Below the pieces are notes generated by a model. The model did no database searches and was not told the origin of the DNA. It saw nothing but the letters and a program-made list of their open reading frames with translations. From a virus: a stretch of DNA of 39,192 nt. Below are positions 33,064 through 37,315 of the stretch, piece by piece. A program made the translations under genes and the position numbers. Every line of letters begins with the position of its first letter. The first letter of the stretch is position 1. Where the stretch lies: positions 1 through 39,192 of IMG/VR virus record IMGVR_UViG_3300037071_002924. One strand, written 5' to 3'.

Positions 33064-33213
33064 GAATTTCGTCCCTGCACGACCTGGCCGCATGGCCGTC
33101 CCTGCACTACCGCCCCCTAGAGTCATTGGGCGTCAGACGCCCCGTTCAGGTATTCCCCGTGTGTTCCTAAATCGCCGGTTGTTCAAAAGTGAACAGCCTT
33201 TCTGTTTTTGGCT
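33064..33213. other. non-coding region with two palindromes
   Basis: No gene is supported here. Two symmetric elements are visible: GGGCGTC-A-GACGCCC near 33127-33141 and TGTTCA-AAAG-TGAACA at 33180-33195. A direct repeat CGTCCCTGCAC occurs near 33070 and 33102. GC content drops towards 33213, in keeping with a control region. Confidence 0.4.
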
Positions 33214-33295
33214 CATTACAGTAACGGGCTTGACTCCCTCCCCTCTTTTCGGCTTGACTTGTAATGAAAAATCATTACAGTAATGCCGGGTAATC
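33214..33295 (+). promoter_or_regulatory. initiator-gene control region with inverted GTAAYG pairs
   Basis: CATTAC-A-GTAACG (33214-33226) and CATTAC-A-GTAATG (33273-33285) are the same inverted pair. Extra GTAATG (33261-33266) and GTAATC (33290-33295) flank the second, forming a GTAATGA-N4-TCATTAC palindrome. Two GGCTTGACT copies lie between. TTGACT near 33254 with TACAGT 16 nt later is a possible promoter. The same hexamer builds the iteron array in the gene that follows. Confidence 0.55.
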
Positions 33296-33304
33296 GGACG
33301 GCCC

Positions 33305-34219
33305 ATGTATAACAAGTTGTTCAGTAAAATCCTCGACTCATCGGTCTGGTTAGAGCCCACCGCTACAAGAATAGTTTGGATGACGTTTCTGGCCGTGATG
33401 GACGAGGCGGGCTTTGCTCAGTTCGCGTCGGTCGCCAACGTCGCCCATCGGGCGCGCGTGAGCCTGGATGAAGCCAAAGAAGCCGTCGGCAACCTCGAAG
33501 CGCCCGACGAAAATTCCTCCGATCCGGAGTTTGAGGGACGGAGAATCGAGCGCGTGCAGGGCGGCTGGATGGTGCTTAACGCTGGTAAATACAAGGACTT
33601 AGTGACGCGTGCTGAAATGCAGCGATTGAATCGTATCCGGGTGCAACGGTTCCGTGAGAAGAAGAAGAATGGTAATGGTAGTGTAATGGAGGGTAATGGT
33701 AGTGTAATGGATGGTAATGATGATGTAACGGACGGTAACGCGCCTGTAATGAATGGTAACGCGAAACAGGCGTTTGGTAATGGATCGGTAATGCAATCAG
33801 ACACAGACATAAATACAGAAGCAAGATCAGACACACAGGTGATCGGAGAGAGATCTGCGATCAAAGAAAAACAAGACCTGAGACAGAAGCACCTTTCGTC
33901 CGCTGACGCGGACTTTGCAACGTTTTGCACGGCCTATCCGGCCTCTCGACGGATTACGGGCAAGAAAGGCCGGACCGCCTTCCAGTCGGCGGTCTTGGGA
34001 AAAAACGGCACACACTTCGCGATGATGCTGGAGGCGTTAGAGCAACAGAAGCGCTCTGAGCAATGGCAAACCACGAAACTGATTCCGCTGATGACGACGT
34101 GGCTGAGTCAAGAACGCTGGAATCAAGTGCTTCCTGAACCCGCCAAATTCGGCACCCATCCACGGACGGCCGGCAATCAAGCCGCGCTTGAACGCTTCGC
34201 CAAAGGCGGGCGGTCGTGA
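33305..34219 (+). CDS. phage replication initiator (lambda O-like organisation)
   Basis: A 304-residue protein. Residues 1-100 form a winged-helix domain (MYNKLFSKILDSSVWLEPTA, ANVAHRARVSLDEAKEAVGN, EGRRIERVQGGWMVLNAGKY) seen in phage replisome organisers. Residues 101-120 are basic. Residues 120-165 are a seven-residue repeat (GNGSVME, GNGSVMD, GNDDVTD and so on), which is the coding face of the iteron array. A polar AT-richer stretch follows. Residues 195-285 form the C-terminal domain (FCTAYPASRRITGKKGRTAF, TKLIPLMTTWLSQERW). Origin inside initiator gene plus a loader gene next door is the lambda O/P plan. Confidence 0.7.
   Translation: MYNKLFSKILDSSVWLEPTATRIVWMTFLAVMDEAGFAQFASVANVAHRARVSLDEAKEAVGNLEAPDENSSDPEFEGRRIERVQGGWMVLNAGKYKDLVTRAEMQRLNRIRVQRFREKKKNGNGSVMEGNGSVMDGNDDVTDGNAPVMNGNAKQAFGNGSVMQSDTDINTEARSDTQVIGERSAIKEKQDLRQKHLSSADADFATFCTAYPASRRITGKKGRTAFQSAVLGKNGTHFAMMLEALEQQKRSEQWQTTKLIPLMTTWLSQERWNQVLPEPAKFGTHPRTAGNQAALERFAKGGRS
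33672..33793 (+). repeat. helically phased iteron array, probable replication origin
   Basis: GTAAYG begins at 33672, 33683, 33693, 33704, 33714, 33725, 33735, 33746, 33756, 33777 and 33788. Steps alternate 11 and 10 bp, with one empty slot near 33767. The mean is 10.5 bp, one turn of B-DNA, so all copies face the same side. An AT-richer tract (33795-33880) follows, as beside the lambda origin. The array also encodes an in-frame 7-residue protein repeat. Confidence 0.75.
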
Positions 34220-35008: not shown

Positions 35009-35145
35009 GCTACGACGACAACCAAAACAACGCCGTGCTATTGAAGTGTAGTTTGTGCGGCAAAGCGTTCTATGCGACTCACGCCGATGCGACTCAGAAG
35101 GGTTGGGTGTGCCTGAAATGCCGCTCGCTTACGCCGACTTCCTGA
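35005..35145 (+). CDS. zinc-ribbon miniprotein, 46 aa
   Basis: ATG at 35005 overlaps the previous TGA. The product MSYDDNQNNAVLLKCSLCGK continues to a second CLKC pair, so it is a complete small zinc ribbon. It ends 28 nt inside the helicase gene, suggesting coupled translation. The frame is open further upstream but only as a shadow of the preceding gene. Confidence 0.55.
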   Translation: MSYDDNQNNAVLLKCSLCGKAFYATHADATQKGWVCLKCRSLTPTS

Positions 35146-36434
35146 ACTCCAAAAAGCGGGAGCAGTCGGGCATCGGGCCGATTGACGCGCCGATCGCGCC
35201 GGAACTCTACGAGTGGCAAGCGGCGATCACGCGCTGGGCTGTGCGGAAAGGCCGGGCCGCGTTGTTCGAGGATTGCGGGTTGGGGAAAACGTTTCAACAG
35301 ATCGCGTGGTTGAAGGCGCTGAACGTGCCGGCGATCATCCTCGCGCCTCTCTGTGTCGCGGAACAGACCGTCGCGGAAGGCGCGAAACTCGGCGTGCCGA
35401 TTACCTACGCGCACGATGAATCGGACATCCGCACGCCGATCACGATCACGAACTACGAACGGCTCGATCGGTTCGATGTGGATCGGTTCGAGGCCGTCGT
35501 GCTCGATGAAAGTTCCATACTCAAAAACTTCGAGGGGAAAATCCGGACGGCCGTGATCGACCGCTTCGCCCGCACGCGCTACCGGCTCTGTTGCACGGCC
35601 ACACCCTCGCCGAATGACATCGCGGAACTCGCGAACCATGCGGAATTTCTCGGCCTGATGACGCGGGCGGAATTTCTCGCGACGTGGTTCGTGAAAGTCG
35701 ATGAAGGGCACCGGACCACGGATCATCACGGCTGGCGCATGAAAGGGCACGCCGTGACGCCGTTCTATCGCTGGATGGCGTCGTGGGCGATTGCGTTGCG
35801 GCAACCGAGCGATATCGGGTTCGATGATGATCGGTTTTTGCTCCCGCCGTTGACGTTCCATGAAGTCGTGACGGACGGCTACACGCAAACGGACGCGCTG
35901 TTTCCGGAACTCGGGCTCTACGGCCTCAGTGGGCGGTTGCGGGCCCGACGCGGCTCGCTGGACGCGCGTGTCGCGGCGGCCGTGCGCTTAACGGAACGGG
36001 GCGGCCAATGGATGCTCTGGTGTGGCTTGAATCCGGAAAGTGAAGCCTTGGCCGCGGCGATTCCCGATGCGGTGGAAGTGACCGGATCGGATGCGTATGC
36101 CGACAAAGTGGGCGCGGTGCAAAAGTTTCTCAGTGGGGAGACGCGCGTGCTCGTGAGTAAGGCGCGGATTCTCGGGTATGGGTTGAATCTGCAATGCTGC
36201 CATCAAATGGCGTTTGTCGGGATCGGGGATTCGTTCGAGCAGTATTACCAGGCCGTGCGCCGCTGCTGGCGCTATGGGCAACAGCATCCGGTGGAGGCTT
36301 ACATCATCGTGAGCGATGCCGAGCGCGGGATTGTGGCGAATGTGCAACGCAAAGAGGCGCGACACAACGACCTGAGCCAGACCCTGTTGGAACACATGCG
36401 CGATTTTGAAAGGCGAGAGGTGATTGCGTGCTAG
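35118..36434 (+). CDS. SNF2-type superfamily 2 helicase
   Basis: A 438-residue protein starting MPLAYADFLNSKKREQSGIG. Motif I is EDCGLGKT (51-58), motif Ia includes ILAPLCV (74-80), motif II is VVLDESS (127-133), and motif III is TATPSPND (160-167). Motifs V-VI are LGYGLNLQ and QAVRRCWRYGQ near the end. This is a compact phage SNF2-like helicase, a translocase that works on DNA in replication, repair or remodelling. It overlaps the methyltransferase gene by 7 nt. Confidence 0.8.
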   Translation: MPLAYADFLNSKKREQSGIGPIDAPIAPELYEWQAAITRWAVRKGRAALFEDCGLGKTFQQIAWLKALNVPAIILAPLCVAEQTVAEGAKLGVPITYAHDESDIRTPITITNYERLDRFDVDRFEAVVLDESSILKNFEGKIRTAVIDRFARTRYRLCCTATPSPNDIAELANHAEFLGLMTRAEFLATWFVKVDEGHRTTDHHGWRMKGHAVTPFYRWMASWAIALRQPSDIGFDDDRFLLPPLTFHEVVTDGYTQTDALFPELGLYGLSGRLRARRGSLDARVAAAVRLTERGGQWMLWCGLNPESEALAAAIPDAVEVTGSDAYADKVGAVQKFLSGETRVLVSKARILGYGLNLQCCHQMAFVGIGDSFEQYYQAVRRCWRYGQQHPVEAYIIVSDAERGIVANVQRKEARHNDLSQTLLEHMRDFERREVIAC

Positions 36435-37315
36435 GTGACGTTTATCGCGGCGACGATTGGACGCTGATTCACGGCGACTCGTGCGAAGAACTCCCGAAGC
36501 ACGTTGCGGACAACTCGGTCGATCTCAGTTGCTATAGCCCACCCTTCCTCTCGCTTTTTACGTATACCGCGTCCGAGCGCGACATCGGGAATTGTTCGAC
36601 GCGGGAAGAATTCTTCGCCCATATGAAATTCGTGATTCTCGAACTGTTGCGCGTCACGAAGCCGGGCCGGAATACCTGTTGCCACATCGCGCAGGTGACG
36701 AGCACGAAAAGCACGCACGGCGTGATTGGCTTGATCGATTTGCGCGGCATGATGGTGCAGGCCTTTCTCGAGTGCGGCTGGATCTACCACGGCGATATCT
36801 GTATCGACAAAGATCCCCAGGCGCAAGCGATCCGCACGCACTCGAAAGCGTTGCTGTTCGTGCAGTTGAAAAAAGACAGCTCGTGGTTGCGGCCGGCGCT
36901 GGCGGATTACATCCTCGTGTTTCGGAAACCGGGGGAGAACCTCGTGCCGATTCATCCCGACTTGACGAACAACGAATGGATCGAATGGGCGCGGCCGATC
37001 TGGTATGGCATTTCGGAAACCGACACGCTGAACGTCGCGGAAGCGCGCGACAGTGACGACACGCGGCATATCTGCCCGCTCCAACTCGGCACGATCGAAC
37101 GGTGCATCCGACTGTGGAGCAATCCCGGCGAACTTGTGCTGAGTCCGTTTGGCGGGATCGGATCGGAAGGCTATCAGGCGGTGCTCTCGGGTCGGCGCTA
37201 CTTCGGCGTGGAACTGAAAGACACCTACGCGCAGACGGCCGTCAAGAATTTGCAGAATGCCGAGCGGCTGAAAACCCAAGGCACGTTGTTCGCGGAACCG
37301 GAGCCGGTCGCATGA
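36428..37315 (+). CDS. DNA methyltransferase, amino-group type (beta order)
   Basis: A 295-residue protein from GTG at 36428. Motif IV is SPPF (37-40), preceded by VDLSCY. Motif I is FGGIGSEG (241-248), and ELKDTYAQTAVKNL follows. Motif IV before motif I is the beta-class order. SPPF favours N4-cytosine or N6-adenine methylation, which cannot be decided here. No cognate restriction enzyme is seen, so protection from host restriction is the likely purpose. Confidence 0.75.
   Translation: MLGDVYRGDDWTLIHGDSCEELPKHVADNSVDLSCYSPPFLSLFTYTASERDIGNCSTREEFFAHMKFVILELLRVTKPGRNTCCHIAQVTSTKSTHGVIGLIDLRGMMVQAFLECGWIYHGDICIDKDPQAQAIRTHSKALLFVQLKKDSSWLRPALADYILVFRKPGENLVPIHPDLTNNEWIEWARPIWYGISETDTLNVAEARDSDDTRHICPLQLGTIERCIRLWSNPGELVLSPFGGIGSEGYQAVLSGRRYFGVELKDTYAQTAVKNLQNAERLKTQGTLFAEPEPVA

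Follow-up and report, generated by a model that had tools for sequence, protein, structure and literature searches.

The initiator gene and its surroundings

The window analysed here is the whole of a 39,192-bp stretch of viral DNA (IMG/VR record IMGVR_UViG_3300037071_002924), and the locus under study is a gene on its plus strand (33305..34219) that encodes a protein of 304 aa and holds an array of short repeats. Matches to PHROG 9474 and 270 ('replication initiation protein', E 5e-10 and 1.2e-8, respectively), which fall mainly in the C-terminal domain of the protein, together with homologues of the N-terminal domain, mark it as an initiator of the replisome-organizer type. This agrees with the original prediction, which had placed the array inside an initiator gene. 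The window protein gave no match to PF09681 at E up to 0.1, and a PDB sequence search with both N-terminal clades, that of the window and that of PF09681, returned no credible relative. Downstream of the initiator, positions 35055-37315 of the window hold a gene for a SNF2-type helicase followed by one for an N6/N4 DNA methyltransferase.

In the AlphaFold (AF2) model, whose features are all coded on the plus strand, residues 1-90 (33305..33574) form a winged-helix domain with pLDDT mostly >90, and residues 93-121 (33581..33667) a 29-residue helix (pLDDT about 88-93) that ends in a basic region, N109-RIR-V113-QR-F116-R117-EKKK (33629..33667), proposed below as the reader of the repeats. If N109 is counted as position 0, R112 (+3) and R117 (+8) are invariant in the N-terminal alignment A1, and their equivalents are invariant in alignments A2 and A4. 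Residues 122-178, which include the array-coding segment, are modelled with low confidence and predicted to be disordered, and they are followed by a helical C-terminal domain (residues 179-300; 33839..34204). The AlphaFold model of the second clade (PF09681) has an equivalent helix at residues 106-132 with the same layout, and the order of winged helix, long basic-ended helix, low-confidence array-coding segment and helical C-terminal domain is common to the models of the two clades. The best VIA matches of the N-terminal domain are the winged helices of CRP-type regulators (Z 8.0-8.5), a common fold only; Foldseek and VIA returned generic winged helices and left the long basic helix unmatched, where the lack of a bZIP or initiator match is uninformative.

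The C-terminal domain, as judged from the AF2 model, PHROG and alignment A5, is mosaic among relatives. In columns 200-500 of that alignment (window clade), some of the domains that follow the array and its adjoining tract are of a YPKK..WLNxxxW type and others are unrelated to these. This pattern would be expected of a recombination joint at the array.

Repeats within and upstream of the gene

The array (33672..33793, plus strand), which we propose as a set of initiator binding sites (origin iterons), comprises 11 GTAAYG hexamers starting at 33672, 33683, 33693, 33704, 33714, 33725, 33735, 33746, 33756, 33777 and 33788, that is, in steps of 11, 10, 11, 10, 11, 10, 11, 10, 21 and 11 bp. The number of hexamers, the steps, their 10.5-bp average and the single blank slot (near 33767) reproduce exactly what had been reported from the first reading of the sequence, and the periodicity analysis of the gene that was proposed at that time gives a best-fit period of 10.50 bp with a resultant length of 0.989. 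The word is non-palindromic, and its copies alternate between frame 0, in which they encode V-T or V-M, and frame 1, in which they encode [S/G/C/R]-N; in the third frame GTAAYG yields a TAA stop. Since the third frame is closed in this way and neighbouring copies occupy alternating frames, the alternation lets a coding sequence carry a 10.5-bp ladder. The 21-bp, 7-residue repeat described at first reading has a trace in detectable tandem 21- and 42-bp units, but the array is not a protein repeat: its copies alternate frames and selection operates at the DNA level. In the linker of the window gene, 11 GTAAYG are observed against a mean of 1.18 under synonymous resampling with local codon usage (p<0.0005), and the whole window contains 34 copies on both strands against 18.6 expected, a count reached by no shuffle.

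Five of these copies, absent from the original prediction, lie in the leader of the same gene. They form an inverted pair, CATTAC-A-GTAACG (CATTACAGTAACG, 33214..33226), a single GTAATG on the plus strand (33261..33266) and a perfect palindrome, CATTAC-A-GTAATG (CATTACAGTAATG, 33273..33285), which together with the copy at 33261 forms a proposed autoregulatory operator. This conserved leader layout, GTAAYG-N6/7-CRTTAC-N1-GTAAYG, is represented in the window by the copy at 33261 and the palindrome at 33273-33285, and 67 words are found upstream of 31 window-clade genes against 5.9 expected. A promoter-like TTGACT-16-TACAGT (33254..33281, plus strand) overlaps the operator sites; it is a consensus match only, with one occurrence against 0.4 in shuffles. 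Just upstream of the operator region, at 33177-33204, lies a terminator-like hairpin, GGTTGTTCAAAAGTGAACAGCC, followed by T-rich DNA.

In the F plasmid, RepE represses its own synthesis through inverted repeats at the promoter, and the origin carries direct ones (PMC13028717). Autorepression is therefore the natural guess for the window clade, where the initiator probably acts on its own gene in this way through the inverted promoter copies. The likeness is one of site layout, namely direct repeats at the putative origin plus inverted CATTAC-A-GTAAYG pairs at the initiator's own promoter, and it ends at the location of the iterons, which in F occupy a separate oriS, whereas the window array lies inside the initiator coding region. 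Autorepression is made less certain by the PF09681 clade, in which the promoter sites are absent and the array is present, and by two genes (L231 and L241) with a GTAACG operator upstream despite GTCAATGAC arrays. The same two genes break any tie between promoter sites and array class.

The array is followed by a tract rich in NAG trinucleotides (33794..33838, plus strand; CAATCAGACACAGACATAAATACAGAAGCAAGATCAGACACACAG), a proposed unwinding or single-strand region. Across 78 genes, codons that precede a G-starting codon end in A. This holds over a stretch of about 22 codons beyond the array but not over the 22 that follow, and on the coding strand it produces NAG trinucleotides at intervals of 3 or 6 bp. 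Within the tract, isoleucine is encoded by ATA in 67 of 70 cases (55/332 elsewhere), leucine by CTA or TTA in 47 of 50 (81/390 elsewhere) and alanine by GCA in 62 of 70 (96/399 elsewhere). Relative to the synonymous expectation, the 22 codons after the array in these 78 genes are enriched in A (0.47 versus 0.40) and in AT (0.63 versus 0.55), and the 6-bp periodicity of the tract extends to homologues that have no GTAAYG. The tract is thus selected at the DNA level. In a few genes (L042, L085) a CTT-rich tract takes the place of NAG. A crude and weak per-gene test of association between array and tract was not significant (p 0.35). Under a primase-site reading of the tract, in which CTG or CTA would stand on the opposite strand, the letter before AG gave no clean split by host GC content. 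Possibly the NAG tract serves, in a manner comparable to DnaA-trios, as a single-strand initiator site or primase site.

Resemblance to origins within initiator genes

Several phage origins are known to lie inside genes. The SPP1 oriL, in gene 38, combines direct repeats with an AT-rich unwinding element (PMC6316719); the repeats bound by TP901-1 ORF13 and Tuc2009 Rep2009 lie in the genes for these proteins and constitute the origins (PMC8965321); and the lambda origin sits in the middle of gene O, where initiator sites are followed by an AT-rich region (PMC7466680). These precedents place the array within a known kind of element, the in-gene phage origin, as the repeats lie inside an initiator-type gene and adjoin an A/AT-rich, strand-asymmetric tract. 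The likeness to lambda is one of site layout, with an AT-rich region after sites that lie midway through the initiator gene. Lambda has four longer iterons (six in Stx phages), whereas arrays of the window kind consist of 3-11 hexamers, each taking up one helical turn, and show a conserved pairing between basic helix and hexamer. SPP1, Tuc2009 and TP901-1 share with the window direct repeats inside the initiator's own gene and differ from it in the repeat words; in the papers searched, neither a helical lattice nor a basic-helix code turned up for them.

Inspection by eye of two further linkers suggests the same design with other words. The Tuc2009 Rep linker (L124:7435-7480) has CAACCAA words about 11 bp apart and that of Listeria phage A118 gp49 (L122:11955-12030) has ACAACG words about 12 bp apart, each followed by a purine-rich tract. 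A likeness exists also to the Phage_rep_org_N replisome organizers (PF09681), among them Streptococcus phage phiARI0131-2 gp29 and Staphylococcus phage 52A ORF015, which have a winged helix, a basic helix, a GTAACG or GTCACG array and a NAG tract; the window protein differs from them in belonging to another N-terminal clade and in having the promoter sites.

Given that lambda, SPP1 and Tuc2009 have origins of this kind, origin iterons are the likeliest role of the array. The sites might instead be operators, a partition or incompatibility determinant or a packaging signal, bound by a protein that only regulates or segregates, and the enrichment of the same word at the promoter in the window clade lends this some plausibility. 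We consider it unlikely, as the origins of lambda, SPP1 and Tuc2009 are likewise placed inside the initiator gene, beside an asymmetric A-rich tract, and the PF09681 clade maintains the array without promoter sites. A reading of the array as methylation sites sits poorly with a non-palindromic word that is linked to residues of the basic helix. The change in GC skew along the window coincides with the switch in gene strand and gives no independent origin signal; GC skew, being confounded with gene direction, was discarded as an origin mark.

Covariation of the basic helix with the array word

For the basic helix, 165 non-redundant proteins were aligned while positions 0, +4 and +7 were masked. 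The residue at +4 shares 1.09 bits of mutual information, and that at +7 0.80 bits, with the third base of GT[A/C/G]ACG, against within-family permutation maxima of 0.34 and 0.28, and none is seen at +6, at +9 or at the arginines in these 165 proteins. At +4, V or Q goes with GTAACG, K with GTCACG and N, T, M or A with GTGACG; K for GTCACG and N or A for GTGACG were predicted before scanning, and T and M were added after seeing the scan results. The residues do not overlap between words in the largest family (V48 and Q6 for GTAACG, K16 for GTCACG, N10 and T4 for GTGACG), where the +4 rule fits 84 of 84 proteins. In the other families it fits 67 of 80, and the 13 exceptions include register errors or antisense reads as well as real ones (L550, L214). 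The window helix, with V at +4 and F at +7, fits the GTAACG class, and V likewise occupies +4 in three bacterial contigs with arrays that a longer pattern brought to light afterwards. As the sets of GTCACG and GTGACG helices were picked by a pattern scan at 11/10 spacing, they reveal nothing new on spacing. Basic helix and word change together, and this covariation suggests that the array repeats are initiator sites, which the initiator would read one by one to start genome copying. Four genes (L231, L241, L243 and L250) combine GTCAATGAC arrays with a KQAEYR-type helix; in L231 and L241, where this Q/Y helix coexists with a retained GTAACG operator, the proposed code does not account for the reader of the array.

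According to the sequence comparisons, it is probably the basic end of the helix, N109 to K121, rather than the winged helix that does most of the reading. Winged helices are standard DNA readers, and the model of the N-terminal domain is well folded. One could therefore picture this domain reading the hexamer, with the role of the basic helix limited to non-specific contacts with phosphates. Yet N-terminal domains that are 83-97% identical over 95 aa occur with different helix/site pairs, and the helix is always changed. The nearest neighbour by N-terminal domain predicts the site class correctly in 101 of 152 cases overall and in just 50 of 84 in the largest family, where the helix rule is right throughout, and the helix signal is confined to +4, +7 and 0. 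A winged-helix reader is accordingly quite improbable.

The main worry for recognition by the basic helix is that helix and array adjoin each other, so that their match could reflect common ancestry of a recombining cassette of helix, array and tract, which clearly moves between N-terminal domains. When proteins of the same class with unrelated N-termini are compared, however, likeness is raised only at +4 (32.6x), +7 (2.9x) and 0 (2.1x), and the remaining variable helix positions have ratios of 0.7-1.2. This pattern points to recognition and makes shared ancestry as the sole explanation very unlikely.

The covarying positions 0, +4 and +7 coincide with the base-contact positions of bZIP proteins. 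In Pap1, whose motif is NxxAQxxFR, the TTAC half-site is touched by N, A, Q, F and R, and the G that flanks it by an Arg further upstream (PMC7261193). The phage helices resemble those of Pap1/Yap in having N or T at 0, Q or V at +4, an aromatic residue or H at +7 and R at +8, and the GTAAC of the window word is the complement of the Pap1 GTTAC. The window motif is NxxRVxxFR, with R at +3 and not the A of bZIP regions of the NxxAAxxCR type, and differs from a bZIP in that the helix hangs on a winged helix and that the sites are direct repeats, one per turn, as opposed to one palindrome. There is no leucine zipper after the basic region, where residues 122-178 have the predicted disorder described above. 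Lacking a zipper and having Arg at +3, the window protein is not a bZIP protein, and the resemblance appears to be one of motif only.

Distribution of the array and selection on word and phase

When IMG/VR was scanned for a word occurring three times at a spacing of 11/10 bp, arrays of GTAAYG came up in at least 120 viral DNA stretches, and of GTCACG and GTGACG in at least 120 each, while the same type of scan gave 55 for the backwards word in the whole collection and 30 for GTTACG. Most of the listed matches lie inside initiator-like ORFs, and array size across genes ranges from 3 to 11 hexamers. Named carriers are Streptococcus phage phiARI0131-2 gp29, with a GTAACG array, and Staphylococcus phage 52A ORF015, with a GTCACG array, both in genes that adjoin a DnaC-like loader gene. 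Since in-gene origins are already known and the array occurs well beyond the window phage, the initial description of it as an undescribed element finds no support in that form. Compared on its own with viral contigs, the window protein gave no relatives; these were recovered instead through the word and N-terminal-domain alignments. In other initiator families, GTGACG arrays fall at residues 37-46, inside the code of the N-terminal domain and not after the basic helix (L464, L488, L528, L548, L572, L577; L471, L477, L482, L494, L526, L541).

To avoid circularity, homologues were gathered with an N-terminal-domain alignment that ends before the array. The resulting 65 non-redundant genes contain 121 GTAAYG against 17.0 expected by synonymous resampling, and the hexamer that encodes [SGCR]N is GTAACG in 61 of 75 cases in the linker and in 5 of 42 elsewhere in the same genes. 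Distances between GTAAYG pairs are almost only 10, 11, 21, 31/32, 42 and 53 bp; those of 7, 8, 13 and 14 bp are absent, though the reading frames would permit them. In 33 homologues without GTAAYG, identical out-of-frame 5-mers recur at lag 10 (97 versus 8.9 expected) and at lag 11 (74 versus 8.1), and the array words found in their place include GTGACG, GTCACG, GTAATC and GTCAATGAC. As these genes keep the 10/11-bp DNA repeat, phase is more conserved than word. Steps in the PF09681 clade are 10, 11 and 12 bp, not strictly 10.5. In L216 and L075, the linker has an inverted array, CGTTAC at 10/11 bp, followed by a CTT-rich rather than an AG-rich tract.

The array is thus selected as DNA, both in its hexamer and in its phase. 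The original prediction of a 10.5-bp phase as a DNA element gains from the conserved spacing and the DNA-level selection across homologues, and the outcome that it regarded as adverse, a protein repeat kept while the hexamer or its step is lost, is the reverse of what is seen: hexamer or protein repeat is lost and the step is kept. That the protein repeat alone matters, with tandem duplication or codon bias producing the DNA repeat as a side effect, is almost certainly wrong in spite of the detectable tandem units, since neighbouring copies lie in different reading frames, the signal vanishes under synonymous resampling, repeats recur at out-of-frame lags and the backwards word and GTTACG are so much scarcer than the three array words.

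Proposed mechanism

The explanation that we favour, and regard as likely as a whole, is that the array is a block of origin iterons within the initiator gene, each GTAAYG being read by one initiator. The first reading had proposed a replication or assembly element, and an origin/assembly element is still the best interpretation in the light of the initiator-type gene, the DNA-level selection and the conserved 10.5-bp phase. The steps that we infer, comprising binding, origin activity, oligomer formation, melting, helicase hand-over and autoregulation, might proceed as follows. One initiator molecule would bind each GTAAYG, placing the basic-helix residues at 0, +4 and +7 and the invariant arginines at +3 and +8 in the major groove in a bZIP-like manner. 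With one site per helical turn, successive initiators would share the same face and orientation and could hence stack into a directional oligomer. This oligomer would open or occupy the adjacent NAG tract, which might then be handed to the helicase loader via the C-terminal domain. In the window clade, the inverted promoter copies would mediate self-repression by the initiator.

Significance for phage replicons

What is new here is the one-word-per-turn lattice as a widespread selected feature, together with the helix code; no description of a GTNACG ladder or of the helix code was found in the open-access literature searched, which is not proof of absence. We lean slightly towards the broader view that phages evolved, independently of eukaryotic bZIP proteins, a helix code in which the +4 residue selects the third base of GTNAYG, and that a matching out-of-frame array within the gene has given rise to a swappable cassette of helix, array and tract and to mutually blind replicons. 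Many phage replication genes annotated as 'hypothetical' become readable replicons in this manner: from the gene alone the likely origin can be located, and its site word predicted from one helix residue. Predictions of possible cross-replication or interference among phages, satellites and plasmids also come within reach. The system provides a simple case of a recognition code between protein and DNA that can be tested, and it illustrates how two DNA elements shape the disordered linker in a protein-coding gene. If true, origin specificity would be swappable as one gene-internal cassette, leading to replicons that are blind to each other.
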